This document shows positions 40,755 to 60,440 of a stretch of 64,000 nucleotides of DNA, piece after piece. This DNA is from Desulfobacterales bacterium (GTDB lineage Bacteria; Desulfobacterota; Desulfobacteria; Desulfobacterales; JAIPEE01): the NCBI GenBank assembly GCA_021737275.1, contig JAIPEE010000004.1:62001-126000 (forward strand). The letters are read 5' to 3'. How positions within the stretch are numbered: position 1 is the first letter of the stretch; every line of letters starts with the position of its first letter. The notes beneath the pieces were generated by a model. It searched no databases and was not told where the DNA came from. It saw only the letters and a program-made list of their open reading frames with translations. Position numbers and translations under genes: made by a program.

Positions 40755-40825
40755 CTTTATCTCCTTATATTATCTAAACGATTAAAATCGTTGAATTATT
40801 TAATTACTCTTAAGCAATTGGCAAT

Positions 40826-41599
40826 TTATACAACCTTTGCCTCTTCATGCAGCGCTTTAACCAGAAGAGCAGCCTTTTCCTGTGCAGATTCACCTTCAAT
40901 CATTCGTCCGCCAACTCTTTCAGGCGGCATTCTCAATGCAGCAATACCGACTTTGGGTGAAGGGGCCTCTATGCCGATGTCTGAAAGGGTTTTGGTATCC
41001 AACGGTTTTTTCTTTGCTTTCATAATGCCGGGAAGAGAAGCATAGCGCGGTTCGTTCAGGCCACGCTGGGTAGTAAAAAGCGCCGGTAAGGGGGCATCCA
41101 GAACAACCGTTCCACCTTCAACAGTACGGTTACAGCGAATTTTACCATCAACGATCTCTTCCTTATTAACCAGTGAAATCTGGGGAATGCCAAGGTATTC
41201 GGCAACAGCGCCACCAACAATGTAATTATCATCATCAACGGCTCTCTGGCCGGCGATAATCAGATCATAAGGCATAGTTTTCAGGGCTTCAGCAAGAATT
41301 TTTGCAATACCGAGGCTGTCACAACCGGCTGTAGCCGGATCATTAATCAGCACACCGTTGTCTGCACCCATGGCCAGGCCGGTTCTGATGGCTTCAACCG
41401 TTTTATCTGTTCCCACGGATAAAATGGTAACGGTTCCGCCCTGCTCTTCCTTGATCTTAAGCGCCTCTTCAACTGCGAACTCATCATACGGGTTTATAAC
41501 CCATTTGATATCATCTGTTTTAATGGATTTGCCGTCATCGGCAATTCCGATCATTGCTTCGGTTGCCGGTACTTGTTTTAACAATACAACAATGTCCAC
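40826..41599 (-). CDS. etfB: Electron transfer flavoprotein, beta subunit
   Basis: The 257-residue ETF beta subunit has the N-terminal strand DIVVLLKQVPATEAMIGI, the nucleotide-binding loop region (GADNGVLINDPATAGCDSLGIAKILAEAL) and GQRAVDDDNYIVGG, and the EVDGKIRCNRTVEGG-like domain. It starts with GTG at 41599, preceded by AGGAAGG. Whether it binds AMP or bifurcating FAD is not clear from the sequence. It heads the etfBA operon, and a large palindrome lies in its upstream region. Confidence 0.93.
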   Translation of the reverse strand: MDIVVLLKQVPATEAMIGIADDGKSIKTDDIKWVINPYDEFAVEEALKIKEEQGGTVTILSVGTDKTVEAIRTGLAMGADNGVLINDPATAGCDSLGIAKILAEALKTMPYDLIIAGQRAVDDDNYIVGGAVAEYLGIPQISLVNKEEIVDGKIRCNRTVEGGTVVLDAPLPALFTTQRGLNEPRYASLPGIMKAKKKPLDTKTLSDIGIEAPSPKVGIAALRMPPERVGGRMIEGESAQEKAALLVKALHEEAKVV

Positions 41600-41625
41600 G
41601 TTTTACCCTTCCTCTCTTGGTTGAT

Positions 41626-41658
41626 TTGAATGGCTAGTTTAACTAGCCTTTAATTCAA
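41626..41658 (-). promoter_or_regulatory. Palindrome upstream of etfBA, possible operator
   Basis: GGCTAGTTTAACTAGCC (41632-41648) is an eight-base inverted repeat about a single T. Beyond it, TTGAAT (41626-41631) and ATTCAA (41653-41658) continue the symmetry with a four-base offset. It lies 27-60 bases upstream of the etfB GTG. This layout suits a dimeric repressor (for example of the TetR type that controls acyl-CoA genes) or a folded leader. No regulator gene is adjacent. Confidence 0.5.
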
Positions 41659-42066
41659 TATAAAACATTCCTTAACTTACTTAAATTATTCAATTAGATT
41701 TGCTGACGAGGAAAATTACAATAATCACTCCCTGATGTCAATAAAATTATCCCACACCAAACCGGGCATGGATAGAGCCTGTAGGATTTAGCAATGGCCG
41801 CAGCAACATCATATGCGTCACAACATACCGAAAATCCATTATATTCAAACACTGATCTCCTTTGAGCAAATAGAATGGATCCTGCCCAAACCGAAGCCCG
41901 GTGACATCTTTCTTGAACGTCGCGAATGATACCTTTCCAATGCCTGCATACCGGTCATTTCAACGTATTGGACTACCCTGTGATTATAACTTTGATTTCA
42001 GAGCCGACCCGAAACCGATCTGTTTGGAGCTTATATATAAATCCTATGGGTAAAATGAATAAACTT
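41659..42066. other. Intergenic region between etfB and apbE genes
   Basis: About 410 bases with no supported gene. A stretch at 41850-41925 reads as an uninterrupted peptide-like frame (QIEWILPKPKPGDIFLERRE, then TGA) and could be a relic of an older gene, but no family is recognised and no start or ribosome site fits. The promoter of etfBA should lie at the left end. Confidence 0.35.
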
Positions 42067-43110
42067 TTACTCTGCAGTTTTAAACCCTTTTGATTGAAAA
42101 TCTATCAGCGAGCCATCGTCCTTCCGAGTAACGATCAACCCTTCCACATGATCAAGGCGATTTATCAACGCAAGCCCTTTTTCATGGCCCATCACCATTA
42201 TGGCAGTCGCAAGTCCATCCGCCAGAACACAATCTCTGGTGATAACAGTTACACTTACAACTTTATTGGTAACCGGATAACCTGTTCTTGGATCAAGAAT
42301 ATGTGAATAATTCTGCCCGCCGGCCTCAAAGAAAATTCGATAATCACCACTGGTGGCAAGGGCGCTTTCCTGAAGATCGAGTATTTTATAAACCTGGTTG
42401 ACGCCAGAGCCCTTAACAGGAGTGTTGATGCCGACACGCCACAGTTTTTTATCTTTTCGTACACCTGACGCCCTTATCTCTCCACCAATTTCAACCAGGA
42501 AATCCGTGTAGCCGTTTTCAAGAATCAGTTCTGCAATCTGATCGACCCCATAACCCTTGGCGATGGAAGCAAAATCCAGAGAAATGGCGGGGAGCTTTTT
42601 AACAATAAATCCGCCATCAAATATTTCAATGTGGTTAAAACCGATTCCTTCAAGCAATTTTTTTATTTCACCATCATCAGGAACTGTATTCTCTTCCTGC
42701 TCAAGGTTTCCAAAACCCCAGAGATTTACAAGCGGCTTGATAGTGCCATCCCATGCACCATCACTCATATTATAAAGGCCAGCACCTACAGTTACAACAT
42801 TTAGAAAATCATCAGAAACAGGAAACTTTTCACCTGTTTTATCCAATGCATTAAAGCGACTTATCTCACTATCCTTAATATATATGGACATGCTCCGGTT
42901 TATCTCATCAAGCCGGTTATCTATCTTTTCCTGAAGTTCATTTATATTCTGAAAAAACCAGCCCACAATTTTAATATGGTAAGTTGTTCCCATTGTTTTG
43001 CCGGAGAGCAAAACCTCTTTTTTAAGCGTGCATCCGGAAAACGGAAATAAAAAAATGATAATAAGCAGGAGGGTGCTTTTTTTAAAAAAAACAGTATTCT
43101 TTTTGTACAT
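42067..43110 (-). CDS. apbE: FAD:protein FMN transferase (ApbE), lipoprotein
   Basis: The 347-residue protein has a lipoprotein signal with lipobox FSGC at C27, then the ApbE domain: GKTMGTTYHIKI, SEISRFNALDKTG, WDGTIKPLVNLWGFG, ISLDFASIAKGYGVD (the ISLDFGAIAKGYAVD-type motif), EIGGEIRASG and SHILDPRTGYPV. It attaches FMN covalently to Thr in periplasmic or membrane flavoproteins such as Rnf or Nqr subunits. No Rnf or Nqr gene is in the window. Upstream, about 110 bases separate it from the small conserved gene at 43224. Its signal and motif set are complete. Confidence 0.93.
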   Translation of the reverse strand: MYKKNTVFFKKSTLLLIIIFLFPFSGCTLKKEVLLSGKTMGTTYHIKIVGWFFQNINELQEKIDNRLDEINRSMSIYIKDSEISRFNALDKTGEKFPVSDDFLNVVTVGAGLYNMSDGAWDGTIKPLVNLWGFGNLEQEENTVPDDGEIKKLLEGIGFNHIEIFDGGFIVKKLPAISLDFASIAKGYGVDQIAELILENGYTDFLVEIGGEIRASGVRKDKKLWRVGINTPVKGSGVNQVYKILDLQESALATSGDYRIFFEAGGQNYSHILDPRTGYPVTNKVVSVTVITRDCVLADGLATAIMVMGHEKGLALINRLDHVEGLIVTRKDDGSLIDFQSKGFKTAE

Positions 43111-45414: not shown

Positions 45415-45867
45415 TTATTTGGGAAACATCGAAAAAACCGATTTCGGTGATTCAATTATTTTTTGGATTTTTTCCTGTGTTTCAATTTTTTCCTCTTTGT
45501 CTTTTATTTTCCATGCACCTTCGATTTTTCGAACAAGTTCAAAAATATCACAAGGCTTTGTCAGATAATCGTACGCACCAAGTTTGACTGCTTCCAACGC
45601 CGAATCGATAGATCCATGCCCTGTAAGCATAAGAATTTGCGTTAACACACCCAGTTTTTTAATTTCTTTCAATGTCGCCAAACCGTCCATGCCCGGCATT
45701 TTCAAGTCCAACACCACAACATCAAAGTTGGTTTTTTCAAGTTCCAGAAGCGCATCTTCACCATTATGGACAGTGGTCACATTGTATTTACGGGTTATTA
45801 AAAGTTTTGCCATATTCCCGGCAAATATCTCTTCATCATCTACGATTAATATTTTTGATCCGATCAT
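45415..45867 (-). CDS. Single-domain response regulator (CheY-like)
   Basis: The ~150-residue protein is a receiver domain with no effector domain: acidic pair DDE near residue 10, phospho-acceptor D54 in VVVLDLKMPG, T82 (MLTGHGS) and K104 (YLTKPCD). The final ~35 residues are a charged helix. The ATG at 45867 follows AGGAGG; the ATG at 45882 overlaps that site. It starts 48 bases after the Cache histidine kinase gene on the same strand, so it is probably the phospho-target of that kinase. With no DNA-binding domain it should act by protein contact. Confidence 0.93.
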   Translation of the reverse strand: MIGSKILIVDDEEIFAGNMAKLLITRKYNVTTVHNGEDALLELEKTNFDVVVLDLKMPGMDGLATLKEIKKLGVLTQILMLTGHGSIDSALEAVKLGAYDYLTKPCDIFELVRKIEGAWKIKDKEEKIETQEKIQKIIESPKSVFSMFPK

Positions 45868-45915
45868 TTTATTCCTCCTCATGCTGCTTATTAATAAAAA
45901 ATCGGGTTTGATTCT

Positions 45916-47691
45916 TTAATCCCGATCGGGCTTTTTCATATCGTCTAATAATTTTTGGGGTGGACTGTAGGGTAGAAAAATTTCAAACTCCGCTCCTTCA
46001 CCGACAGTGCTTTTTACAGTTATATTTCCGCCAAGCCGCTTTATAGTACTGAAGCAGATTGAAAGCCCTAACCCTGTACCTTTGCCCACGGGCTTAGTCG
46101 TAAAAAACGGGTCAAATATTTTTTCCATCCGATCAGGTGAAATCCCGGAACCGGTATCGGCTATACTAATTATTATCCCGGGTTTTTTTTTGGTCGAACG
46201 GGTTCGAATGGTTATGGTTCCGAAGGATGTATTTTCACAGGCATCGATGGCGTTGATAATTATATTCAGCAACACTTGCTGCAATTGAGAAGGATCCGAC
46301 TGTAAGGCCGGCAGATTTTCCTCCAGATGGGAAAAGAATTTAATGCCGCCGGATCCGGCCTCTCTTTCCATGAGCTCGATTACTTCCTGTATAAAATCAT
46401 TAAGGTCAAAAGACTCGATTACCGATTGGGTTCGCCGGGCAAATCGAAGCAGGTTGTAGGTTATGCGTTTGCATCGATGAATTTGAATGTCAATCTGTGC
46501 CATGGAATCACAGAACTGCTCTTTGAAGTCCGGGTCCGAAATCGGTTTTTGCATTTCCAAGTCTATCATGATTTGCCGCTCAGTTGATATAATGGCAAGG
46601 GGATTGTTAATTTCATGAGCCACGCCGGCCGACAACTGCCCGATGGCGGCCAGTTTACCGGTTTGTACAAGCTGTTTATTCAGATTTTCCGCTTCCCCAT
46701 CTCGTTTTTTAATGATGCATATCATATGTCTTGTGATCAGAATCACCACAACCAGTATGATGATTGCACTTAAATGGAGAAAAATAAGTACCGCATAATT
46801 AGCAAGATTAACATCGCTAAAGGCTTCTGCGTAGTTCTGTTTGACTACAAGCTTCCAGCAGGGCTCCGAGAGCCAGGCCTGACTCATAATTTGCCGGGGG
46901 ATCTTTTTCTGACTGTTACTGTCTGTGTAGCTCTCCTGAATGCAAGTCTGGATGCCATCATAAAATTCATCAACAGGGAAGGGGGAGCTATCCAAAATTT
47001 TCCCACTGTAACGGGGGCTTGTTTGATATATTCCCTGCTGATTGACTATAAAAACTTCCCCGGTTTCACCGATTTTGACATTTTCAACCAAACTTCGGAA
47101 AACCTCCGTATCGATGGTGGCCCTTAGAATCCATTTTTCATTGTTATGGGTTGCCGTTACCGCAATCACAAAATGGGGTTCTTTTCGAAAACCCATAAAC
47201 ATGTCACTGATATAGATGCCTTTGTTCATAACGGCCTTGAACCAGAATGTTTCCGAGTAGTTTTTATCCAGCAGATCGTAAGGCCCGACATAGGCAAGAT
47301 GGCGGCCCGTTGAATCAATGACACCAAGGTCCGTGATGGATCGATACTCCCGGTTAATAAGTTTAAAAATATCATTCAGATTTGAAGGAACTGTCAGGAA
47401 ATCTTTAGAATGAGTTTCAGCAATAAGCTGTAGTTTTGAACTGCGTTCTTTTATAAACAGTTCAATAATATTACGGTGATGTTCCAACTCGGTCCGAAAA
47501 GAACTGATCATCCGGGATTTAGCAAACCGGGCATAGTAAATATTTATCCCCCAACCCGCCACCAGCAATGGAACCAGGGAGCATACCACCGTCAACAAGA
47601 CCAATCGTCTGGTTAATCTGGTGTAATAAGTGTTGTGCCCTTTTTCTAAATCATGGTTGCTGTCATGATCGGGTAGTAATTTTTCAGCCAT
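45916..47691 (-). CDS. Cache-domain membrane histidine kinase
   Basis: The 591-residue protein has membrane segments at ~29-53 and ~298-320 with a periplasmic Cache sensor between (DLGVIDSTGRHLAYVGPYD, GIYISDMFMGFR). A HisKA domain follows with phospho-acceptor H359 in GVAHEINNPLAII, and an HATPase domain with NIIINAIDACE, DTGSGISPDRM and GKGTGLGLSI. All kinase motifs are intact. The sensor is clearly paralogous to that of the kinase at 50417, aligning across DLGVIDSTGRHLAYVGPY and the FMGFR..PHF region. The next gene, a receiver-only protein, is its likely partner. Confidence 0.94.
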   Translation of the reverse strand: MAEKLLPDHDSNHDLEKGHNTYYTRLTRRLVLLTVVCSLVPLLVAGWGINIYYARFAKSRMISSFRTELEHHRNIIELFIKERSSKLQLIAETHSKDFLTVPSNLNDIFKLINREYRSITDLGVIDSTGRHLAYVGPYDLLDKNYSETFWFKAVMNKGIYISDMFMGFRKEPHFVIAVTATHNNEKWILRATIDTEVFRSLVENVKIGETGEVFIVNQQGIYQTSPRYSGKILDSSPFPVDEFYDGIQTCIQESYTDSNSQKKIPRQIMSQAWLSEPCWKLVVKQNYAEAFSDVNLANYAVLIFLHLSAIIILVVVILITRHMICIIKKRDGEAENLNKQLVQTGKLAAIGQLSAGVAHEINNPLAIISTERQIMIDLEMQKPISDPDFKEQFCDSMAQIDIQIHRCKRITYNLLRFARRTQSVIESFDLNDFIQEVIELMEREAGSGGIKFFSHLEENLPALQSDPSQLQQVLLNIIINAIDACENTSFGTITIRTRSTKKKPGIIISIADTGSGISPDRMEKIFDPFFTTKPVGKGTGLGLSICFSTIKRLGGNITVKSTVGEGAEFEIFLPYSPPQKLLDDMKKPDRD

Positions 47692-47988
47692 TGCATTTGC
47701 CGCCCATTAAATGATAACCGGAATTTTGTGGTGGTTCAGATTCAATCGTTTCTTATTCATAGAATATACAAAAGTTATGCCAGAGATTTGGGATAGCAGC
47801 CGGTGCCCGCAGGTTGTTTTATGTTGCTGGTATTTATGGATTTAAATTTTTTTTCAAAATATGAAACAATCCGGTGTAACTTTTGGGATGACAACTGTGG
47901 AAATGGAAAATTTCACTGGCAGCGATTGCTTCGGACTTTCGGCCGGGATAAGAACGGGTGAGCTAACTTGATTTGAATAAGCAGTGTT

Positions 47989-50433
47989 TCATCTAAAGTT
48001 ATCCCAATATCGGCTTTGAACCTCGATTACTTTTTCCAGAATCGGCAGACGGCGGCGGGATTCTTTGATTTTTGCAATTTTTTCCGGGAGCAGCGTTCCG
48101 GCATTACACAACTCCTTCATCATGGAAAGGCCGCACTTCTCTATTCCCTGGACACTGTATCCACCTTCCATAACAAAGGCTATTTTACCGCTGCAGACCC
48201 TTTCTGCTATTTCCAGCAGCAACCGGGTTATCAGGGCATATCCTTCCGGTGTTCCCTTCATGCCGCCGAGACGATCGTGTAAATATAAATCAAATCCACA
48301 TGAAACCAGCATAAATTCAGGACAATAACTATCTGCAAGAGGTGCGATAAGATCTATAACAATCTGTGCAAAATCACGATCGCCATGACCTTTTGCCAAC
48401 GGGATATTAACCGTAAACCCTTCTCCTTTTCCTGACCCTACTTCACCGAGCTTGCCGGTACCCGGATAGCAGGGGAACTGGTGCATGGAGACAAAAAGCA
48501 CGTCATCGGTATCATAAAAAGCAGCCTGCGTTCCGTTGCCATGATGTACATCAATGTCGACAATCATCACTTTTTTAACGGCGTATTCTTTTTTAAGATA
48601 ACCGGCCCCCAGCGCCACATTATTGAACAGACAAAATCCCATGACCTTATCGGGCTCTGCGTGATGACCCGGTGGACGAAGGAATGCAAAACCCCGGTCC
48701 GAGTCACCCCTCCATATGCCGTCGATAAGGCTGAATAGCGACCCCACAGCGAGTCGTGCCGTATCATAAGACCTTGCTGTCGTTTGGGTATCCAGGTCAA
48801 AAGATCTCAAAGATTTACCGGCAGTACGTGCGATACGTTCAATGTGTTCCGGTGTATGTATCCAGGCCAGTTGCTCAACGGTAGCCATGCGGGCAGGGAT
48901 CACCGCCCATTTTTCATGGAGACTTTTGTGGGCAAGAATCTTCTCGACGGCACGGTTTCGTTTGGCACTTTCAATGTGAAACACGTTTTCCAGATGATGA
49001 GAAAACCGTTCATCCTTGATTACCAGCACAGGGCGAACGATTGGCGGCGGCTTAATTTTGATTCGACCCTTTTCTGTTCCAAAAGAAAGCAGATGTTCTG
49101 TTTCCGGAATATTCGCTTTCTTTTTCAGTAGATATTCGGCTGCTGTTTTGGGAAACGCCAAATGTCTTTTTGACAACAGGCAGGCTTTTATAAACTCAAT
49201 GGCATATTGTCGTTGCCGGTTTTCAGCCTGTTGCCGACGGGGTTTTTTTGCCAGAATTTTAACCTGTTGCTCAATCAGCCTGCAAAGATCCTGAATAACC
49301 CTGGTGCCTGGCTCCCGGCAATTGTCCGCCATAATGAGAATGGTTTTCATCAGATACCCGGCCGGCTTTTTCAATGAATAAGCACAAAGACGTCGGGGGG
49401 TAAAACCGATGGATGAATAAAAGCGGCCGGCCCCTATCTCCGAATCAAGGAAGATCTCCTTAACGGACGGGAGTCGTTGCTTCCAGAGCATCCATATTCC
49501 GGCCATCAGAAAGGTCCCGATGCCTTTCAGATTGGCAGATTTACGATTATCCGGATACCGGTTGGTGTTGCGAAGGGTTGCGACATACCTGACTTCCAGG
49601 CCTTTGTAGAGCAGTTGTTCTTTTAACGAAAGATAAATAAGGCCCATGATATTGTTTTTTACTATACATGCGAAAAGGTTTTTTTCATGTTTTTTTTCAA
49701 GGCATCTCAGCAGAAACCTAACGTGGAAAAATTCCAGGTCAATGTGGGCGACCTGCATCAATGCATCAAGGCAATAGGGGAATTGAATAAAATGGGCTTT
49801 TATCCCGCTGCTCACCTCAGCGGTATAAAAAACGCCCCTATGGTTTTCGTCCATTTTCCGGGAGATAAAATCATCGACACAAGAGTCGCCTGCCCGTATA
49901 TCTTCTAGAAAAGAGATAAGTTGTTTGAGAAAAAGTGCTTTTTTTTTCTGTACTTGATTTGTATATGCAAGCTGTTTTTTTAAACGCTGAATAGAAAATT
50001 TTATTTCATGGATTACCATAAACTGCAGGCCTGACCGGTAAATATCCAGGGCTGCCTCCCGATAATCCAAAGGCGTGGCATTGCCGCTCAGCACTTGTTT
50101 TCGTAAACGTTCCCCATATTTGATCAGAAGGTGCTGTTCAATGACAGCCGTTCCATCATTAAAAAATGAAATTTTTTTTATGGGGACTTTTTGATCTTCA
50201 AATAAAAAATACAGGTTATCACCACCATTATCTTCACCCTGATGATCCGGAGCATCTATTCGGCCGGTACCGAACATGTCTGTAAGAGAATAACCGACTT
50301 CCGGATCTCTTTCGGAGATGGCATCAATGGCATGTTTTAGAGATTCTCTTTTTATCATGGGCCGTATGGATGCAACTATAGTAATTATTTTACCCAAAAA
50401 AACCGACTCAATGGTTTTATGAGATTGCGCCAT
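47989..50433 (-). CDS. GNAT acetyltransferase - HDAC-type deacetylase fusion
   Basis: The 814-residue protein has a ~230-residue N-terminal helical region of unknown type and a GNAT acetyltransferase-like domain at ~235-350 (NLKGIGTFLMAGIWMLW for acetyl-CoA binding, SEIGAGRFYSSIGF as the C-terminal GNAT motif). After a basic linker comes a class II-like HDAC/AcuC domain at ~467-775. Deacetylase residues are complete: H590-H591 (RPPGHHAEP), D628 and H630 in DIDVHHGNG, D715 in CGFDLY and Y759 in EGGYS. One protein may therefore both acetylate and deacetylate a lysine target, or the GNAT part may be regulatory. It overlaps the upstream kinase gene by 17 bases and precedes the second kinase. Confidence 0.88.
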   Translation of the reverse strand: MAQSHKTIESVFLGKIITIVASIRPMIKRESLKHAIDAISERDPEVGYSLTDMFGTGRIDAPDHQGEDNGGDNLYFLFEDQKVPIKKISFFNDGTAVIEQHLLIKYGERLRKQVLSGNATPLDYREAALDIYRSGLQFMVIHEIKFSIQRLKKQLAYTNQVQKKKALFLKQLISFLEDIRAGDSCVDDFISRKMDENHRGVFYTAEVSSGIKAHFIQFPYCLDALMQVAHIDLEFFHVRFLLRCLEKKHEKNLFACIVKNNIMGLIYLSLKEQLLYKGLEVRYVATLRNTNRYPDNRKSANLKGIGTFLMAGIWMLWKQRLPSVKEIFLDSEIGAGRFYSSIGFTPRRLCAYSLKKPAGYLMKTILIMADNCREPGTRVIQDLCRLIEQQVKILAKKPRRQQAENRQRQYAIEFIKACLLSKRHLAFPKTAAEYLLKKKANIPETEHLLSFGTEKGRIKIKPPPIVRPVLVIKDERFSHHLENVFHIESAKRNRAVEKILAHKSLHEKWAVIPARMATVEQLAWIHTPEHIERIARTAGKSLRSFDLDTQTTARSYDTARLAVGSLFSLIDGIWRGDSDRGFAFLRPPGHHAEPDKVMGFCLFNNVALGAGYLKKEYAVKKVMIVDIDVHHGNGTQAAFYDTDDVLFVSMHQFPCYPGTGKLGEVGSGKGEGFTVNIPLAKGHGDRDFAQIVIDLIAPLADSYCPEFMLVSCGFDLYLHDRLGGMKGTPEGYALITRLLLEIAERVCSGKIAFVMEGGYSVQGIEKCGLSMMKELCNAGTLLPEKIAKIKESRRRLPILEKVIEVQSRYWDNFR

Positions 50434-52102
50434 TCTTATGGATGGCCGGTTTCTCGAATTCCAGGGGCAGTGCTATAATAAAAAAAGTGCCCTTTTCCGG
50501 ACCTGAGTCGGCCCGGATGGTTCCCCCGAGCTTTTCGAGTATATCAAGGCAAATGGGCAACCCAAGTCCGGTTCCTTCCGGTTTGGTTGTATACAGGGGC
50601 TCAAAAATAGATTTAAGACTATCTGCCTCAATTCCGGGCCCATTATCGGTAATGGATATAGTTATCTCATTTTCACCGTACTGAGTTACCAGCGTAATTT
50701 CTCCATCGGACCCGATCGCAGAAATGGCATTTAGAACGATGTTTTGAAATACTTGTCTGATTTTTGTTCTGTCACTTCGAATAACCGGCAACGATGGTTG
50801 AAATTCTTTTTTAATACGGATATTACGAAGATGCAATTCTTTACCAAGAATCTCTGTAAGATTGTCCAATACCTTGTTAATATCGATATCCGTAATAATT
50901 GATTCACCCGGACGGATAAACTGTAAAAACCGATCCATGGCTTTTCGGCTCTGCGCAACCTGGGATTTTATTTGAGCCATGCCGTCTTTTATTTCTTTCG
51001 TTTTTTCGGGCTCCGTTAAATCCTGCAGCCAGGTTGCGGTTATATCGATGTTTGCCAGGGTATCGTTAATCTCCTGAAAAAAACTATTGGACAGTTCCAT
51101 TGCAGAGGAGATGTAACTGATGTGTCTGAGCTGTTTGTCTAGAATCAAAATGATTCGTTTTTTTGATTCTAGCCTTGAAACCAGGTAGTTGGTGGTGAGC
51201 AGTATTGTCAGCACCATCAGAAAACCACCCATCAGGAAGACCAGAATTGCAATATTTCTTGTCTGGTGCAGTGTTTTGAAGAGTTCTTTACGTTCCATTT
51301 GGACGACACAAATCCAGGGGACTTGTTTCTGCCAGGTCGTCAAAATAATAGATTTCCCGTTCTCGATCGTTCGGATGCCATCAAATGGTTCTATGGCGCT
51401 CAATTGTGATTGCGCCATCAGTTCACCACCTATCTTTGGCCGGGTTTGAAATAGGCCGTTTGTGTTTATCAGATAAGTATCTCCTTTTCTGTCTCCTGTG
51501 ATTTCAGAAACCATATTATCAAATATGTTGACGTTTATGGTTACCCGGATGATCCATTCGCTTCCATCACTGTTTTGTTTGACGGCAACGATAAAATGAG
51601 GAACATTTCTAAAACCCATAAAAATGTCGCTGACAAAGATCTCCCTGGCCATAACTGACTTGAACCATGGCGCATTTTTATAATTTGCGGTAAGCAAAGA
51701 GTAAGGGCCGACATAAGCGTTATGTTTTCCCTGGGCGTCAATGATTCCGATATCCTCAAAACAGGGAAACTGCCGGTGCAACGATTGGAAAACTGATTGG
51801 ATTCGTCCGGGAAGTGCCAGCTCAGCCAAAGTCTGTTGCTCGGAGATTAGTTTCAGGGCAACGATTCGTTCCGACAAAAAACGGTCTATGGATTTGTTGT
51901 GCTGGATTACTTCTGTTTTAAGCGAGTCGAGTGTTTTCTGTTTTAACTCACAGGCGAAATAATAATACAGCCCTCCGCCGATGAGGATCAGAGGCACAAA
52001 GGATGATACCAGTAGCGCCATAACTACCTTTTTCCATGTACGGCGAAAATAAGGATAATCATTGGGGCGGTTTTTTTTATCTATATGTGAAATCGCTGTC
52101 AT
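50417..52102 (-). CDS. Cache-domain histidine kinase homolog lacking the phospho-acceptor His
   Basis: The 561-residue protein has two membrane segments (~24-49 and ~283-305) around a periplasmic Cache sensor that closely parallels that of the kinase at 45916. In the DHp helix the position of the phospho-His is Gln343 (FFQEINDTLANID), which aligns without gaps with VAHEINNPLAIIS of the sister kinase. The ATP-binding domain is otherwise complete (FQNIVLNAISAIG, ITDNGPGIEADSL, GTGLGLPICLDIL). Autophosphorylation on the usual His is therefore impossible. It may be a pseudo-kinase that senses and gates the active sister kinase, or a phosphatase for a response regulator. It lies between the REC-CBS and GNAT-HDAC genes. 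Confidence 0.9.
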   Translation of the reverse strand: MTAISHIDKKNRPNDYPYFRRTWKKVVMALLVSSFVPLILIGGGLYYYFACELKQKTLDSLKTEVIQHNKSIDRFLSERIVALKLISEQQTLAELALPGRIQSVFQSLHRQFPCFEDIGIIDAQGKHNAYVGPYSLLTANYKNAPWFKSVMAREIFVSDIFMGFRNVPHFIVAVKQNSDGSEWIIRVTINVNIFDNMVSEITGDRKGDTYLINTNGLFQTRPKIGGELMAQSQLSAIEPFDGIRTIENGKSIILTTWQKQVPWICVVQMERKELFKTLHQTRNIAILVFLMGGFLMVLTILLTTNYLVSRLESKKRIILILDKQLRHISYISSAMELSNSFFQEINDTLANIDITATWLQDLTEPEKTKEIKDGMAQIKSQVAQSRKAMDRFLQFIRPGESIITDIDINKVLDNLTEILGKELHLRNIRIKKEFQPSLPVIRSDRTKIRQVFQNIVLNAISAIGSDGEITLVTQYGENEITISITDNGPGIEADSLKSIFEPLYTTKPEGTGLGLPICLDILEKLGGTIRADSGPEKGTFFIIALPLEFEKPAIHKNGAIS

Positions 52103-52161
52103 AATCTCTTACGCCTCCTGCGGTTCTCGAATGCGAAGCAACAGCCGATTAAACGGGTTGT

Positions 52162-53007
52162 TTATTCAACCTCGTATTCTATAAATTCCAGAACATCTCG
52201 CATCCTTATAATGCCAATGACGGCACCTTCATTGGAAACAACCGGCATACTTCGAAATTTATGAGTAATCATTCGGTCCGCAACCTCTCTAAGTGTTGCA
52301 TCGGAGCCGGTTGTGATGGTTTTCCGGCACATAATATCTCCGATACATTTTTCCGGAAGCCATTGGGGGTGATGAGTGAGTGAATCCCATGTAATCTTCT
52401 GAAGCGGATGGTTTTCCCGGGCCGCAGTAATCAGATCACTTTTAGTAACCAGGCCCTGGAGCCGATCCAGGCGATCAGTAATAAATAAGGTATCCGCAGA
52501 CTTTTTTCCGGTGTATCGGTTGAAAAGGTCAAGCGCCGATGTTAACGGATCTTCAGATTTCAAAGGTAAAAAAGCAAACAGAATAATTTCTCCTGCTTTT
52601 TTTCTGGGCCAGAGTATCGGATGCCGCCGAATATGTTCGAGCTCACAGGCCGCCTGAACTTTTTCGGTTAGATCTTCAATGTCACAGGGCTTCATCAGAT
52701 AGTCAAAAGCGCCTTCCCGGACGGCCTGGACTCCGGACTCAAGGGAGGCATAACCGGTGAGCATAATGACTTCAGTATCAGGTGCAAGATTCTTGATATG
52801 GCGAAGCGTCTCGACTCCATCCATTCCCGGCATTTGATTATCCAGCAGAACAACATCGAAATCTTGTTCGGCCTGAATGATTTCAATCGCTTTAAAGCCG
52901 CTGAATGCCGTTTTGGTCTCAAATCCCCGAACTGCAAAGATCCTGGCCAGATTCATTACGAATGTTTCTTCGTCATCTACCAAAAGTATGCGGAATTTTT
53001 TGTTCAA
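52162..53007 (-). CDS. Response regulator with paired CBS domains (REC-CBS)
   Basis: The 281-residue protein has a receiver domain (acidic pair D11-D12, phospho-acceptor D56 in VVLLDNQMPG, T84, K106 in YLMKPCD) joined to two CBS domains at ~155-280 (VTKSDLITAARE; VIGIIRMRDVLEFIE). CBS pairs usually bind AMP, ATP or SAM, so the output could be switched both by phosphorylation and by adenine nucleotide. No DNA-binding domain is present, so the output is a protein contact. It precedes the His-less kinase gene on the same strand by 59 bases. Confidence 0.93.
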   Translation of the reverse strand: MNKKFRILLVDDEETFVMNLARIFAVRGFETKTAFSGFKAIEIIQAEQDFDVVLLDNQMPGMDGVETLRHIKNLAPDTEVIMLTGYASLESGVQAVREGAFDYLMKPCDIEDLTEKVQAACELEHIRRHPILWPRKKAGEIILFAFLPLKSEDPLTSALDLFNRYTGKKSADTLFITDRLDRLQGLVTKSDLITAARENHPLQKITWDSLTHHPQWLPEKCIGDIMCRKTITTGSDATLREVADRMITHKFRSMPVVSNEGAVIGIIRMRDVLEFIEYEVE

Positions 53008-53038: not shown

Positions 53039-53449
53039 CTAAACTTCCTGCCAGAGGCCTTTGAAAATGAAGTAAACAGATCCGAACATCAGAATCCACA
53101 GGGCGATAATAACGCCTGCCGTGATATGGCTTTTGGGTTTACTTTTGTTGAGAATTGTTTCTGCATGTGCCCTGCATTCGCTCATAATCGGTTCAGGAAT
53201 CATTTTTAATGCAATATAAATACCCAGGGGAACCAGGATAATATCATCGAAATATCCCAGAACAGGAATAAAATCAGGAATAAGGTCAATGGGACTGAAA
53301 GCGTAGCCGACCACACCAGTAGTGAACACTTTGGCATACCAGGGCGTTCTTGGGTCCATGCACGCCAGGTAAAGCGCGTAGAGATTTTTCTTGAGCGGTT
53401 TGGCCCACTCTCGGCAATTCTTAATAATATTGATTCGCAAGTGTTTCAT
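53039..53449 (-). CDS. YkvA-family (DUF1232) membrane protein
   Basis: The 136-residue protein has the DUF1232 core, with a pair of hydrophobic helices around the Asp-rich motif YAFSPIDLIPDFIPVLGYFDD. A basic N-terminus and a third hydrophobic segment near the C-terminus follow. The family is widespread and has no firmly known function. It is between the unknown membrane protein (53493) and the REC-CBS gene, on the same strand, and probably shares their transcript. Confidence 0.88.
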   Translation of the reverse strand: MKHLRINIIKNCREWAKPLKKNLYALYLACMDPRTPWYAKVFTTGVVGYAFSPIDLIPDFIPVLGYFDDIILVPLGIYIALKMIPEPIMSECRAHAETILNKSKPKSHITAGVIIALWILMFGSVYFIFKGLWQEV

Positions 53450-53492: not shown

Positions 53493-54020
53493 TTAATATG
53501 CAATGAAAAATATCATTGTTCCAAACAACAGGCAAGTGATCCACAGGCTATGACTGAAAGGCCCCTTTTTAATTGCTTGAAACCGAGCCTCCGGTTGTTT
53601 ATGTCCTTGGGAACACACATAGTGTATTCGTTTTTCCCCGATTTTATTGCAAAATGCACTTTTGCGTTTTACAGATACGCCGCATACGGATTTGCCGCCC
53701 GCCAAAGGTTTGCTGCAGGTCATCCGTGCTCCGATCAGAAAGCAAGTCAGATTGACTACCCAGTTCCAGGTACCGGCAATAATGGCAGCAGAGAAAAAAA
53801 ACATCATCATATCTCCCCTTGTAATTCCCATGCCTGCAAGGGCATCACCTATTTTTTCAGGCTGTAACGGCCCTTCCTGGCTACCGAAAAAGCCCAAGTA
53901 GTATAGAATAAAACATGCGCCCATCACTATCATAGTGATGCCGAAATTGGATGCCCGTTGTTGAAGGGATCGGCTTTTATGCCATTGGTTCATCGGTGTA
54001 TATTCTCCTGAGTAATTCAT
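53493..54020 (-). CDS. Membrane protein of unknown function with Cys-containing central loop
   Basis: I do not recognise this 175-residue protein. It has two or three membrane segments near the N-terminus (GITMIVMGACFILYYLGFF; MFFFSAAIIAGTWNWVVNLTCFLIGA) and one at the C-terminus (WITCLLFGTMIFFIAY). Between them is a basic loop with four Cys (TCSKPLA, SVCGVS, AFCNKI, YVCSQG), perhaps a metal or redox site. The ATG at 54020 follows GGGAG at seven bases. It appears to be the first gene of the signalling operon, after the TSUP terminator. Confidence 0.65.
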   Translation of the reverse strand: MNYSGEYTPMNQWHKSRSLQQRASNFGITMIVMGACFILYYLGFFGSQEGPLQPEKIGDALAGMGITRGDMMMFFFSAAIIAGTWNWVVNLTCFLIGARMTCSKPLAGGKSVCGVSVKRKSAFCNKIGEKRIHYVCSQGHKQPEARFQAIKKGPFSHSLWITCLLFGTMIFFIAY

Positions 54021-54143: not shown

Positions 54144-55187
54144 TTATCCTGCCAACTTTTTTATGATGCCGGGAGCAATGTTCCAGAAACAGATTACCGC
54201 TACGATAATACAATAAGAAGGTACAATAATTTTCCATAGCTTTTCCGGAAAGACCCTTGTCATATAAGGTGCGGCCACGGCTGAGAACATGGTGGCAATC
54301 ATCATGGACGGCAACAGCATATAATCGATCTGGACCCCGCTTGTGAGCAATGCAATCCATACAATGATGGCAAAAGTACTTACTGCACCTTCACAGATAG
54401 CGGTAACGGCGAGCATACTTTTAACCGGCACACCGGCCAAAAGGCCACCGATAGTGACAACCGGTCCGTATCCACCACCGCCAACCCCTTTATTGAATCC
54501 CGCCAGCGCCGCCCACCCAATCATTTTGCCGGGCCTGTAGGGCCGTTCCTTTCTTGACTGGAATACGGAAATAAAGCCCATCATCAGAAGGAGAATCGCC
54601 ACGTAAAGTTTGATCCAGACCTTATCGACATGCAGGATTTTGTATACGCCTACAATAGAAAGGCAGACAGCAGCGCACCCTGCCAGGGATATGATAAGCG
54701 AAAGCTTAACCGTTTCAGACATAGGGCTGAATTTCCATTCTACATTTTCAAACTCCCTGTGCAAAAAGGCTCCCACCAGACCGGCCACGCCTTGCTGAAT
54801 CATTACAACCGGGACAATCTGTCTGGGATCAAATCCGAGTACCAGCAAAATCGGCGTCAGAGCAGTGCCGAAACCCATACCTGCGGAAGCGTCCATGAAT
54901 TCAAAAAACGCCGCCAGCAGAACCACTGACCATATAATGTGCCAGGTATTTCCCGTCAGGCCGTGCGCAATGCTGTAGGCGGATTGAATTCTCACCGTCG
55001 GTTCAAAGGGATTACCGGCAAGCCAGATACCTATCAAAAATACCATGAAAAACACGACAATTCCGCCCAAAGCCGCCCTGAGATGCCGCCACTCGGGAAC
55101 CAGTCGCTCGAAAATAGTCTCCTTCTCTTTTTCGAGGTTCCGGGCAACTTCCCATCCCATCTGTTTTTGTATATTTACTTTTTCCAT
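54144..55187 (-). CDS. TSUP-family (TauE/SafE) anion exporter
   Basis: The 347-residue membrane protein has about eight hydrophobic segments and the TSUP pattern, with two glycine-rich conserved stretches (FMDASAGMGFGTALTPILLVLGFDPRQIVPVVMIQQG and GFNKGVGGGGYGPVVTIGGLLAG). TSUP members export sulfite, sulfoacetate or other sulfur or carbon anions; a sulfur role would suit a deltaproteobacterium. AAGGAGG lies six bases before the ATG. It is the upstream neighbour of the signalling operon but has its own terminator, and it diverges from the CaCA antiporter gene. Confidence 0.9.
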   Translation of the reverse strand: MEKVNIQKQMGWEVARNLEKEKETIFERLVPEWRHLRAALGGIVVFFMVFLIGIWLAGNPFEPTVRIQSAYSIAHGLTGNTWHIIWSVVLLAAFFEFMDASAGMGFGTALTPILLVLGFDPRQIVPVVMIQQGVAGLVGAFLHREFENVEWKFSPMSETVKLSLIISLAGCAAVCLSIVGVYKILHVDKVWIKLYVAILLLMMGFISVFQSRKERPYRPGKMIGWAALAGFNKGVGGGGYGPVVTIGGLLAGVPVKSMLAVTAICEGAVSTFAIIVWIALLTSGVQIDYMLLPSMMIATMFSAVAAPYMTRVFPEKLWKIIVPSYCIIVAVICFWNIAPGIIKKLAG

Positions 55188-55466
55188 AAAAAACCTCCTT
55201 TTTTCTAATTCGGTCTAAGTTGAGATTATGTCCCACGAAGTAGAATTTTAGATTTATATAAACACTGTTATGAATTCCTTAATCAAAACATATGCCAGGC
55301 TGGAAAATTAATCGAAAGTTTGTCGAAAAGGCTTTTTAATATACTGGAAATAAAGCAAATAAATATTACTTTTCTTTTTTTTAAATCTGATCTCAAAAGT
55401 CTTTTTTGAAAGTAATATATGAAGTTGTAAACTGACCGGCGACAGGTGAAGTAGGGAATGAAACTT
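55188..55466. other. Divergent intergenic region, TSUP side
   Basis: This AT-rich stretch between the TSUP exporter and CaCA antiporter genes holds the TSUP ribosome site (TAAGGAGG) and a sigma-54-like element (55283-55298). No gene is supported; a minus-strand frame at 55283-55477 lacks a ribosome site and recognisable content. Confidence 0.4.
55283..55298 (-). promoter_or_regulatory. Weak sigma-54-like promoter upstream of TSUP gene
   Basis: On the minus strand CTGGCATATGTTTTGA matches the -24 element TGGCA of sigma-54 promoters. The -12 element reads TTGA instead of TTGC, so the fit is incomplete. It is about 95 bases from the TSUP start. Confidence 0.3.
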
Positions 55467-55611: not shown

Positions 55612-55720
55612 GTTTTTATTTTCGGAGCCTTAAGCATTAATTTCTTCACGGTGAATATTAAGGCAATAAGAGATTTATGACGGATTTGATCGCCCAATGT
55701 CTGAAAGGAGATTTAAAACT

Positions 55721-56701
55721 ATGTGGATTCAGTATATATTGTTAATAGTCGGATTTGTTTTACTTTACTATGGCGCTGAATGGCTCGTTAAGGGGTCCTC
55801 AAATCTTGCCCGAAGCCTGGGTATAACGCCACTTGTCATCGGGTTGACCGTAGTTGCTTTCGGCACTTCCGCTCCTGAACTGGTAGTTAGTTTTGTAGCA
55901 TCTATCCAGAACAAAAGCATGATTGCGGTGGGAAACGTAATCGGAAGTAATATTTGCAATATTGCACTTGTTCTCGGTATGGCCGCTTTTTTAATGCCGA
56001 TTACAAGTAATAAATCCGTTGTCAAACGCGACATTCCGATTATGCTCGCCATATCAGTATTTTTACTATTGATTTCTCTTAATTCGATGATCAGCAGACT
56101 CGAGGGAATTGTTTTATTTGCAGGTGTCATTCTTTACACCATATATAATTATCGGGTCTCCAAAAAGGAGAGTGCGCTGGTTTCTGAAGTGGAAACTTCT
56201 GACGCTGAAGCTGAGCTGAATGATATCGGGCTTATTGAGTCGAGACCAAAACAGCTTTTCCTAATTTTTTTCGGAATCGCCGGTGTGGTTATCGGTGCCC
56301 AGGTACTCATAGATGCAGCAACGATTGTCATGAGGGAGTTCGGTGTCAGTGAAAAATTCATCGGACTTACGATCGTGGCATTTGGAACATCTTTGCCTGA
56401 ACTGGCCACCTCCGTTGTAGCAGCCCTAAAAAAAGAGATGGACATTAGTATTGGAAATCTGATTGGAAGTAATGTGTTCAATATTCTAAGCGTTATCGGA
56501 GCCGCTTCCATTGTTAGACCGATCCCAATTCCCGGTGGGTTTATCGAAAGCGGGCTGGTCATCGATTATGGTGTAATGCTGAGCATCTGTATTCTGACAT
56601 GGCTGATGATGCGAACAAACTATACGGTTTCCCGAAGGTCCGGGTTTGTGCTTTTATGCTGTTATGTCGGCTATCTCGCTTATTTAATTCCCAATGCTTG
56701 A
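55721..56701 (+). CDS. Calcium/sodium (CaCA family) antiporter
   Basis: The ~325-residue protein has the two inverted CaCA alpha repeats: VVAFGTSAPELVVSFVASI with GNVIGSNICNIALVLG, and VAFGTSLPELATSVVAAL with GNLIGSNVFNILSVIG. About ten membrane segments and a central acidic loop are present. It exchanges calcium or a similar cation for sodium or protons across the inner membrane, as in YrbG. The ATG at 55721 follows AAGGAG at ten bases; the ATG at 55697 has no such site. A sigma-54 promoter candidate precedes it and the gene is convergent with the NtrC-type regulator gene. Confidence 0.93.
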   Translation: MWIQYILLIVGFVLLYYGAEWLVKGSSNLARSLGITPLVIGLTVVAFGTSAPELVVSFVASIQNKSMIAVGNVIGSNICNIALVLGMAAFLMPITSNKSVVKRDIPIMLAISVFLLLISLNSMISRLEGIVLFAGVILYTIYNYRVSKKESALVSEVETSDAEAELNDIGLIESRPKQLFLIFFGIAGVVIGAQVLIDAATIVMREFGVSEKFIGLTIVAFGTSLPELATSVVAALKKEMDISIGNLIGSNVFNILSVIGAASIVRPIPIPGGFIESGLVIDYGVMLSICILTWLMMRTNYTVSRRSGFVLLCCYVGYLAYLIPNA

Positions 56702-56856: not shown

Positions 56857-58278
56857 TTATTTTTTTTTGTTTTGACCGGACAAGCTCCGGATGCTGTTGC
56901 CGTCAATGTCTACATCTTTCATCAGTCGGTGAAGATATTGGCGTTTAATGCCTGCTTTTTCAGCCGCTTTGCTGACATTGCCGGCGTTTTCTCTGAGCAG
57001 TGATTCAATGTACTGCTTGTGAAACATGTGGGTTACACGATCTTTTGCCTCATGAAAAGTAAGTCTGGTGAAGTCAGAACTTAAATCGGATTGAAGGTCT
57101 ATATCTTCATTTTCAAGAAACAGGTCTTTTACCTCCAACATTTGTGTTCTGCAGTAAATTACACCTCTTTCAATCGTGTTTTCCAACTCCCGAACATTGC
57201 CTGGAAAATCATTGGACATTATGGCCTGCATTGCTTCAGGTGAGATCTCCCGGATATCCTTTTGATAGAGTCGTGCATATTTTTTAAGGAAATGATGGCT
57301 CAATATTGGAATATCCTGCTTTCTCTCGTTGAGAGAGGGCAATTCAAAATTGATAACATTGAGCCGGTAATACAGATCTTCTCTAAAGGTTTTTTCTTTT
57401 ATGGCTGTTTTGAGATTACAATTGGTGGCAGCAATGAAACGCAAATCGGCTTTTTTTGTAGTTACGCTGCCGACCGGCTTATACTCACCTTCCTGAAGAA
57501 GTCTTAGCAGTTTGGTCTGCATCAACAGGCTGAGATCTCCAATTTCATCCAAAAATAATGTGCCTTCATGGGCCTCCTCTACCAGCCCTTTTTTATCTTT
57601 CCATGCCCCGGTAAATGCACCCTTGATGTGTCCGAAAAGCTCACTTTCCAAGACATTTTCGGGAATTGCCGTACAGTTTATGGTAATAAGTTTCCTTGTA
57701 CACCTCTGACTATGCCGGTGAATGGCCTTAGCGACAAGCTCTTTGCCGGTGCCGCTTGCTCCGGTGATCAGCACGGTGCCCATAGTGGGCGACACTTGCC
57801 GAATGCGTTCAAAAATTTCCTTCATTACCGGCGTCGACCCGATGAGAGAGGAAAAACAATTTTGATCGGCCAGTGCTTCCCGAAGGGTATCATTTTCCTT
57901 TAACATTTTCTGCCATTTCATGACCTGTTCTATGGTCACAAGAATACGCTCCCGTTTAAAAGGTTTGGAAATGTAGTCATGTGCGCCTTTCCGCGTCGCC
58001 TCTACAGCGGTATCAATTGTAGCGTAAGCGGTCATCATGATAACCGATACTTTCGGGTTCATTTTCTTTATTTTTTCAAGAAGCGCAATGCCGCCGATTT
58101 TGGGCATTTTCAGATCCGAGATTACAAGGTCAAACGGTTGGCTTTCAAACAACTCAAGGGCTTTAACCGGATCTGATTCGGTTGTAACTTCATGCGCCGT
58201 TTCATCGGTAATGATTCGTTCAATCAACAGCAGCATATCTTTTTCATCATCAATTACTAAAATTTTTCCTACCATCAT
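56857..58278 (-). CDS. NtrC-type sigma-54-dependent response regulator
   Basis: The 473-residue protein has a complete receiver domain (D10-D11 pair, phospho-acceptor D55 in LVISDLKMPK, conserved Thr and Lys), an AAA+ domain with Walker A GASGTGKE, GAFTGA loop (GHIKGAFTGAWK) and FLDEIGDL, and a C-terminal Fis-type helix-turn-helix (NAGNVSKAAEKAGIKRQYLHRLMKD). All key residues are kept, unlike the activator at 18866. The start overlaps the stop of the kinase gene by four bases (ATGA), so the two form a two-component pair. The CaCA promoter next door is a likely target. Confidence 0.95.
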   Translation of the reverse strand: MMVGKILVIDDEKDMLLLIERIITDETAHEVTTESDPVKALELFESQPFDLVISDLKMPKIGGIALLEKIKKMNPKVSVIMMTAYATIDTAVEATRKGAHDYISKPFKRERILVTIEQVMKWQKMLKENDTLREALADQNCFSSLIGSTPVMKEIFERIRQVSPTMGTVLITGASGTGKELVAKAIHRHSQRCTRKLITINCTAIPENVLESELFGHIKGAFTGAWKDKKGLVEEAHEGTLFLDEIGDLSLLMQTKLLRLLQEGEYKPVGSVTTKKADLRFIAATNCNLKTAIKEKTFREDLYYRLNVINFELPSLNERKQDIPILSHHFLKKYARLYQKDIREISPEAMQAIMSNDFPGNVRELENTIERGVIYCRTQMLEVKDLFLENEDIDLQSDLSSDFTRLTFHEAKDRVTHMFHKQYIESLLRENAGNVSKAAEKAGIKRQYLHRLMKDVDIDGNSIRSLSGQNKKK

Positions 58279-60440
58279 TCCTCACAATCTTTAATGGGCA
58301 GCTCCACTGTAAAGGTCACACCCCTGGTTTGACTGATACACTCTATTGTACCGCCAAATTTGGTAACAATACCGTAGCTTACAAAAAGCCCCAGACCGTT
58401 CCCTTCGCCTTCAGGTTTCGTAGTGTAAAATGGCTCAAATATGTGATCCAGATTCGCCGGGTCAACCCCGCTTCCTGTATCTCGGAGTATAACTCGTGCT
58501 TTCCGTCTTGCCTTATCAAGATAGGTACTTATTGTTATCGAACCCCCTCCGGGCATGGATGCAACCGCGTTGTTAATCAGGTTCAAAAACACCTGCTGCA
58601 GTTGATGCGTATCTCCATTAACCGGAGGAATCTCTTTTTCAAAATTAGTAAAAAGCTTAATCTGATTTATTTCAAGATTATGATGGACAACTCTGAGAAT
58701 TTCTTGAAGGCAGCGGTTCATGTCACAATACGCTGAATGTTCATCCCGTTCACGAGAGAAACTGAGAAGATTTTCCACAATTTTTTTGCAATGCAGTCCC
58801 TGACGTTCAATAATTTTCAGATCCTCATATTCCTGGCTGCCCGGCTTTTTTTTCCGTAATAACAGGTCACAAAAACCGAGGATAACGCCCAGCGGATTAT
58901 TGATTTCATGGGCAACTCCCGCTGCCAGCGTCCCGACTGATGCAAGTTTTTCTGCATTGATGAGATGCCGCTCCAGATTTCTTATTTCGGTAATATCCCT
59001 TGCAATACAAAGCACCGCAGTAATATTACCGTTCTTACTTTTCAAGGGCATGAAGTTGGCATTTATCCAAATATTTTTTCCGTTTATTTTAAATATCAAC
59101 TCATCATGAACGCTTTTATTTTTATTATAAACTTGTTGTAAAATATCGATCTGTCTCTTGGCGCTTTCTTCCGAAAAAGCTTCAAAAATGCTCTTTCCAA
59201 TAAGATTTTTCGGGCTTGTACCGAAGAAGGCGGCGGTAAAGCTGTTTGCCGATTGAAAGATCCCGTTTTTGTCGATGGTATAGATAAAGTCTTCTGCGCT
59301 TTCCACGAGAGAACGATAATTTTCCTCCGAACGACCCAGCTCTGCCGTTCTTATTCGTATCTGTTCTTTTAACCGTCCCGACCATCTCCTTTCAAGAAAC
59401 AGTATGGACAGTGCTGCCGAAAGAATAATGATAATAACAAAACCCTGAAGGCTCAATTGCCAGAGGTGGCCCTCTTCCAGGGCCTCTTCTATTTCCGAGA
59501 CTGGTGCCACCACCGCAACCGACCATTTTTGAGGAGGTTTATTAGAAATAGAGATAGGGGTAAAAGCGATCAGTTTGTTTATTTTACCTGTATTACCCCG
59601 GTGCCATCCTGAAACATATGAACCGGTGCCCTCATCCCCTTTGAGCATTTTTTCCTTCTGAATAAAATTGATTGTGTAAAAGGAAATGTCGGGATGTTTT
59701 TCCGAGCGAACAGTAAATGCGCTCTTTCCGATAAAAGACACATCCGGATGGTAGAGAAAATAGCCTTTTTCATCAATGATCCATGCATAACCGGTTTTCC
59801 CGGAGTGGATATCTTTTATAAAGGGTGCCAGAAATATGGAAATATTAATATGGAAAATCAGCAGCTCCGTTTCATCGCCAATTAACGGAGCGGCCATTAT
59901 CAGATGGATTTCAGAAGCGTTTGTCTGAGGCCTTGAAACCCACACCGAGTGGTCTGATGCCGCCTTAAGTTGAACCGGGTCCGTTATGTTAACGTCTATA
60001 TTTTCTATCTCCTTCCATGGTGAATGGGGGGTATACGAATATGTTATGCGGTTTTCAAGATTTACACTTTCAATTTTCCAGACACCGCTTTCCTGTACAC
60101 GGTTAAACTCGTTTTGAATTTCAAGATGCTGAAATGAGGGAGTGCTGTTCATGACAGCGATATTTTCAGATAGCAAAAGCAGCTCTTTTTGAAGAAAGCG
60201 CAGTTCCCGTTCAATTAAAGTTTTTACACTTCGGGCAACATAGAGCTGTTCCTCATTAAACTGCTTATCAACCACTTCGCGCATTTCACGACTTGACCAA
60301 AAACTAAGAATCGTTCCCAATGCAATGCAGGTTATTGCTATATAAACCACAATAAAAACAATACGGGATTCAATTTTTGGACGAGTTGCTCTAATCATAT
60401 AGTTGTTAACAGCAAACATCATGCCTATTACAGTAAACAC
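58275..60440 (-). CDS. Cache-PAS histidine kinase, partner of the NtrC-type regulator
   Basis: The 721-residue protein has a first membrane helix at ~26-48, a large periplasmic Cache domain (~50-315), a second helix (~329-350), a PAS domain (~370-490) and a HisKA/HATPase core with H511 in GVAHEINNPLGVI, FLNLINNAVASMP, DTGSGVDPANL and GEGNGLGLFVSYGI. It should sense a periplasmic ligand and phosphorylate the NtrC-type protein encoded immediately downstream (four-base overlap). The exact start is uncertain: ATG codons at 60440, 60422, 60419 and 60398 are all in frame, and none has a strong ribosome site. Confidence 0.92.
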   Translation of the reverse strand: MFTVIGMMFAVNNYMIRATRPKIESRIVFIVVYIAITCIALGTILSFWSSREMREVVDKQFNEEQLYVARSVKTLIERELRFLQKELLLLSENIAVMNSTPSFQHLEIQNEFNRVQESGVWKIESVNLENRITYSYTPHSPWKEIENIDVNITDPVQLKAASDHSVWVSRPQTNASEIHLIMAAPLIGDETELLIFHINISIFLAPFIKDIHSGKTGYAWIIDEKGYFLYHPDVSFIGKSAFTVRSEKHPDISFYTINFIQKEKMLKGDEGTGSYVSGWHRGNTGKINKLIAFTPISISNKPPQKWSVAVVAPVSEIEEALEEGHLWQLSLQGFVIIIILSAALSILFLERRWSGRLKEQIRIRTAELGRSEENYRSLVESAEDFIYTIDKNGIFQSANSFTAAFFGTSPKNLIGKSIFEAFSEESAKRQIDILQQVYNKNKSVHDELIFKINGKNIWINANFMPLKSKNGNITAVLCIARDITEIRNLERHLINAEKLASVGTLAAGVAHEINNPLGVILGFCDLLLRKKKPGSQEYEDLKIIERQGLHCKKIVENLLSFSRERDEHSAYCDMNRCLQEILRVVHHNLEINQIKLFTNFEKEIPPVNGDTHQLQQVFLNLINNAVASMPGGGSITISTYLDKARRKARVILRDTGSGVDPANLDHIFEPFYTTKPEGEGNGLGLFVSYGIVTKFGGTIECISQTRGVTFTVELPIKDCEE

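Follow-up and report, generated by a model that had tools for sequence, protein, structure and literature searches.

The five genes and their products

Five genes follow one another on the minus strand of the window, the whole 64,000-nucleotide stretch of Desulfobacterales DNA that was analysed. In the direction of transcription they encode a receiver-CBS protein (REC-CBS; 52162..53007, with a TTG start behind GGAG), a dCache kinase lacking the phosphoacceptor histidine (k2; 50417..52102), a predicted GNAT-HDAC fusion protein (47989..50433), an intact dCache histidine kinase (k4; 45916..47691) and a receiver-only protein (45415..45882). A preliminary description of the sequence had reported these genes, and the positions and strand of the open reading frames bear it out. 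The same is true of their domain make-up: Pfam finds a receiver domain and a CBS pair in REC-CBS, dCache and HATPase_c domains without HisKA in k2, a Hist_deacetyl domain (1e-87) in GNAT-HDAC, dCache, HisKA and HATPase_c domains in k4 and a receiver in the last protein, the GNAT domain alone falling below the cut-off. The 17-base overlap reported between k2 and GNAT-HDAC holds for the frames as called, that is, for the longest ORF, but is not secure, since most orthologues begin at a methionine aligned with residue 26. A start at Met26 (base 50358) would leave a gap between the two genes in place of the overlap, and several relatives have 4-base overlaps at this joint.

REC-CBS consists of an N-terminal receiver and two CBS stretches, with neither an ACT domain nor a DNA-binding domain. 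Its receiver, which gives a 45% match to the lone receiver, retains the phosphoacceptor Asp56 together with Thr84 and Lys106 in 23/23 orthologues, and most orthologues keep in the first CBS stretch a G..T..D sequence that we take to be the ribose-binding motif of CBS domains. Orthologues, defined by E <= 1e-35 at a sharp score gap (the next best match is 1e-22), occur in 24/292 Desulfobacterales genomes, 22 of which also carry GNAT-HDAC (Fisher p 1.5e-25); in the remaining two, REC-CBS lies at contig edges.

The two kinases are paralogues, as had been proposed, sharing 32% identity over 554 residues, and each forms a monophyletic group with full support in the tree. In the window, k2 has Gln343 at the position of the phosphoacceptor histidine and intact ATP-binding boxes. 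Among 29 copies of k2 the H-box position is occupied by R, E, S, Q, L or A in 27, is unaligned in one and is a histidine only in L048, where the ATP boxes are degenerate; the N and G boxes are kept in 27/29. By comparison, the phosphoacceptor histidine of k4 (His359 in the window) and its N and G boxes are present in 25/25 copies. Judged from these counts and from the monophyly of both kinases, the histidine loss in k2 is old and conserved. A sequencing or frame error was rejected as its source, with 27 orthologues lacking the residue. Six loci have lost most or all of the k2 Cache domain while keeping the H-box helix motif. Degradation of k2 goes further in L048 and L052, where the Cache domain is absent and the ATP boxes are lost, and the G2 box is altered in L045, L049, L050 and L067, a lineage with REC-CBS missing or unseen. 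The receiver-only gene directly follows k4 wherever k4 is complete in its context. Kinases of the k4 type also occur outside GNAT-HDAC clusters, at L083, L088, L092 and L095 and at L085, L087, L089 and L093, beside CitMHS/TrkA_C transporters or 850-aa PPDK_N/PEP-utilizer proteins, and several of these kinase genes are preceded by the sigma-54-like site described below.

The GNAT-HDAC protein divides into an N-terminal conserved region (residues ~1-200), a GNAT region (~201-354), a helical linker and a class II-type HDAC region (~465-814). Alignment of the HDAC half places RPPGHH, D628, H630, H631, D715, L722 and EGGY in 29/29 orthologues, so that the Zn ligands, the catalytic histidine pair and tyrosine and the RPPXHH motif of class II-type HDACs are all present, and the best PDB matches are HDAC6, HDA15 and HdaH. 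These residues mark the HDAC half as a canonical class II-type enzyme. RPPXHH and EGGY have been tied to acetyl-specific deacetylases (PMC11532494), and on the basis of that motif analysis the HDAC half is predicted to remove acetyl rather than long acyl groups. The assignment of residues 201-354 is moderate rather than firm because the Pfam score of the window protein lies under the cut-off; the best E among 15 orthologues is 0.00036. An AlphaFold model of these residues has the strand and helix order of GNAT, all 50 of the 50 Foldseek matches listed are GNAT-fold acetyltransferases, albeit with a best E of only 5.5e-3, and a GxG loop and FY..GF vary little or not at all among orthologues; both the fold and the acetyl-CoA loop expected of a GNAT domain thus appear to be present. 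The N-terminal ~200 residues are conserved in part, and residues 1-104 are poorly modelled. A PDB sequence search with the N-terminal profile returned one weak GNAT match only, and neither GNAT-HDAC nor its N-terminal half has a family in NCBIfam.

GNAT and HDAC halves are fused in most genomes and encoded by separate adjacent genes in L009, L061, L062, L065 and L068. Their occurrence as a fusion in some genomes and as neighbours in others argues that they act as a pair. The same distribution led us to reject the fusion as an assembly artefact. Of the five HDAC-family genes in the genome to which the window belongs (loci L001-L005), a single one includes a GNAT half.

Conservation, surroundings and transcription

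The preliminary description had suggested searching related genomes for the five-gene order. The GNAT half was found in 28 of 292 Desulfobacterales genomes; with two further Desulfobacterales records (L036, L039) and one locus outside the order (L072), this gives 31 GNAT-HDAC genomes. L072, which has all five genes, was the one genome outside Desulfobacterales recovered by a phylum-wide search for the GNAT half (395 genomes). The full order REC-CBS, k2, GNAT-HDAC, k4, receiver is present in 18 of the 31 (the window, L036, L039, L042, L043, L044, L046, L047, L048, L051, L054-L058, L063, L065 and L072), 6 are cut by contig ends and 7 deviate. Within the order, the TauE gene and a 175-aa gene (see below) are inserted in L048 and a 4.6-kb segment in L065. 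Elsewhere, k2 is missing from L059, k4 and the receiver are inverted in L068, k4 is shortened in L041, and L061 and L062 lack a k4 orthologue with the remaining genes present. REC-CBS is absent from one lineage (L045, L050 and genome G227, loci L066/L067) while k2, GNAT-HDAC and k4 stay. The divergences of GNAT-HDAC, k2, k4 and REC-CBS are correlated (Pearson 0.69-0.87). Clustering of all neighbours in search of a common substrate gene yielded none that recurs, and no acyl-CoA synthetase. Taken together, a conserved five-gene neighbourhood tied to GNAT-HDAC is supported by these comparisons.

Conservation also extends upstream, and a limit at five genes cuts the neighbourhood short. Before REC-CBS, all on the minus strand, lie genes for a DUF1232 protein (53039..53449), which in some relatives follows the receiver gene instead, a 175-aa protein with hydrophobic stretches and no Pfam family (53493..54020), kept beside TauE in >20 loci, and a TauE/SafE-type membrane transporter (54144..55187), a conserved neighbour. 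Further upstream are an NtrC-type response regulator with receiver, sigma-54 activator AAA+ and Fis-type HTH domains (56857..58278) and, overlapping it by 4 bases, a PAS histidine kinase with a Cache-like sensor (58275..60440). An orthologue of the NtrC-type regulator is present in 26/28 GNAT-HDAC genomes vs 31/264 others, and its divergence correlates with that of the set. The earlier statement that the regulators lack a DNA-binding domain is accurate for the two receiver proteins it named, but leaves aside this NtrC-type regulator and its own kinase in the conserved surroundings. A sodium/calcium exchanger gene lies on the opposite strand (55697-56701, plus), with similar genes in ~9 loci. 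On the other side of the set, genes for electron transfer flavoprotein subunits and an ApbE-type FMN transferase occupy 39789-43110 (minus), downstream of a porin-like gene.

Two sigma-54-like -24/-12 sites were found on the minus strand: TGGCATAACTTTTGTA (47767..47782), 91 bases before k4 in the 297-base gap after GNAT-HDAC, and TGGCATATGTTTTGAT (55282..55297), 110 bases before the TauE gene. Scanning <=200 bases upstream of each gene for TGGCAY-N5-TTG (background 0.015 per 200 bases) placed such sites before k4 in 17/25 loci, before TauE in 11/22 and before REC-CBS in 1/26; no locus scanned had one before k2, GNAT-HDAC or the receiver. The -12 element of these sites is TTGA or TTGT, not TTGC. 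In view of the site before k4, k4 and the receiver probably form a transcript of their own, and the five genes probably do not share a single one. REC-CBS, k2 and GNAT-HDAC are probably transcribed together, for which the TauE promoter may serve, and the k4-receiver unit is possibly under the same NtrC-type regulator.

Candidate mechanism and rival readings

In the acuABC operon of Bacillus, the genes for a GNAT (AcuA), a CBS-ACT protein (AcuB) and an HDAC-type deacetylase (AcuC) stand together, with AcsA as substrate, and AcuB, which binds adenine nucleotides, uses its ACT domain to inhibit AcuC (PMC13121692, PMC13039410). The two studies disagree on Ap4A, which strengthens the inhibition of AcuC in one and abolishes it in the other (PMC13121692, PMC13039410). 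In the light of this operon, the most likely reading of the locus, if a tentative one, is a signalling module for reversible protein acetylation, governed by a two-component system and by the adenylate state. Still more tentatively, we propose that a two-component system here has the reversible acetylation of lysines as its output: REC-CBS would integrate phosphorylation and adenylate charge to control a bifunctional GNAT-HDAC, and the His-less kinase would serve as modulator. In such a system, k4 would detect a small ligand in the periplasm, probably an organic anion, and phosphorylate the lone receiver, perhaps also the receiver of REC-CBS. Its paralogue k2, with the same sensor fold, would bind the receivers or k4 without phosphorylating by itself. 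With its CBS pair, REC-CBS would report the adenine-nucleotide state, and it would act on GNAT-HDAC as AcuB does on AcuC, its receiver replacing the AcuC-contacting ACT domain. The balance between acetylation and deacetylation of a metabolic enzyme would then follow both the outside signal and the energy charge. Expression would occur in at least two units, from the sigma-54-type promoters before TauE and before k4, plausibly under the NtrC-type regulator. Contact between a receiver and GNAT-HDAC, and an output on protein lysines, are what we infer in this scheme. Several observations speak against the acetylation-switch reading, namely the lineage without REC-CBS, the loss of k2 from L059 and of k4 from L061 and L062, and the lack of a recurring substrate gene in the neighbourhood; against an AcuB-like action of REC-CBS in particular, the protein lacks the ACT domain that AcuB uses to bind AcuC.

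The main rival, possible but somewhat doubtful, divides the locus into two neighbouring units: REC-CBS, k2 and GNAT-HDAC would serve acetylation, and k4 with its receiver would be a mobile sensor pair for another output, for example organic acid transport, adjacent only through a common sigma-54 regulator. Orthologues of k4 (E <= 1e-116) occur in 40 genomes, and because 16 of these have the k4-receiver pair without GNAT-HDAC, the pair may be a mere neighbour with an output of its own. Its neighbours in those 16 genomes, CitMHS-type transporters or PPDK-like enzymes, hint that the k4 ligand is an organic anion and that the output is possibly other than acetylation. A division into two units is also favoured by the sigma-54-like site before k4 and by L061 and L062, which hold the rest of the set. 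The preliminary description had named homologues scattered without GNAT-HDAC in most genomes, or separate transcripts, as what would tell against a five-gene circuit; this is found in part, in the 16 genomes and in the site before k4. On the other hand, k4 is present in 24/28 GNAT-HDAC genomes vs 16/264 others (p 1e-20), its divergence tracks that of GNAT-HDAC (Pearson 0.84) and its sensor fold matches that of its paralogue k2.

Unlikely, in our view, is a GNAT-HDAC that makes and unmakes an acetylated small metabolite, with the kinases adjusting that metabolic step. In its favour, small amides or polyamines are substrates of some bacterial HDAC relatives of class II type (PMC11532494), and the RPP and EGGY motifs are found in polyamine deacetylases too. 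Small molecules are also frequent GNAT substrates and the set has no known protein substrate, whereas in Foldseek the GNAT part matches protein N-terminal acetyltransferases best, if weakly. At the gatekeeper position the polyamine deacetylase HDAC10 has a glutamate, while the residue aligned with the leucine of HDAC6 is Leu722 in 29/29 copies here. Bacterial polyamine deacetylases, moreover, fall only in another cluster (PMC11532494). Least likely of all is a neighbourhood of unrelated genes held together by co-regulation or co-transfer, with no common mechanism: its patchy distribution, the presence of all five genes in L072, which fits block transfer, and the adjoining TauE and 175-aa genes, whose divergence shows no correlation to the set, are outweighed by a gene order kept across ~15 families at a median GNAT-HDAC identity of 43%, by fused and split GNAT/HDAC forms staying together and by the near restriction of REC-CBS to GNAT-HDAC genomes.

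Because the GNAT-HDAC gene is kept beside genes for membrane sensors and an energy-sensing partner, protein acetylation in its carriers may be set by an external signal. If the acetylation-switch mechanism is true, a periplasmic sensor would be linked to protein acetylation through two-component phosphorylation, a second bacterial group would have assembled acuABC-like control from different components, and a kinase unable to phosphorylate would have a conserved role. The hosts are mostly sulfate-reducing bacteria, and the mechanism lends itself to a clear test in organisms with central acetate and acyl-CoA metabolism.

Relation to known systems

The literature searched contained no account of GNAT-HDAC fusions, of receiver-CBS proteins with a deacetylase or of acylation in sulfate reducers, and no described periplasmic sensor linked to protein acetylation by two-component phosphorylation. 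Nevertheless, the preliminary claim that no system of this composition had been described overlooks acuABC, the closest known composition to the five-gene set. Like the Bacillus and Geobacillus operon, the set brings together a GNAT, an HDAC-fold deacetylase and a protein with a CBS pair in a single neighbourhood. Here, however, the GNAT is fused to the HDAC or encoded next to it, the CBS protein has an N-terminal receiver where AcuB has a C-terminal ACT domain, and the set further includes two dCache kinases and a lone receiver. The HDAC half carries RPPGHH/EGGY as opposed to GGGLHH/GGGY in AcuC, a class I enzyme, which rules out an AcuC-type deacetylase. No acsA or other acyl-CoA synthetase gene was found among the recurring neighbours or the nearby window genes scanned. 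Since the ACT domain is absent, the HDAC belongs to another class and acsA is not nearby, the set is, by its gene and domain content, not a member of the acuABC system. Nor should AcsA be assumed as its substrate, because the cluster 1b enzymes tested did not deacetylate AcsA (PMC11532494).

With the class II-type bacterial deacetylases (HdaH, cluster 1 of PMC11532494; HDAC6-like) GNAT-HDAC shares the catalytic residues, RPPXHH and EGGY; it differs in its fusion to a GNAT and a ~200-residue N-terminal region and in its two-component neighbourhood. The receiver gene directly behind k4 recalls systems of a kinase and a stand-alone CheY-like receiver, to which a paralogous His-less kinase and a receiver-CBS protein are added here. 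Opposing activities also reside in one protein in GlnE, the adenylyltransferase/adenylyl-removing enzyme that works with PII and NtrB/NtrC. The analogy is functional only, with no homology claimed, and lies in a bifunctional modifier, an adenylate-sensing protein and a tie to a two-component system, acetylation being predicted here in place of adenylylation. Among these comparisons, an acuABC-like writer/eraser pair placed under two-component control is the best reading of the locus.
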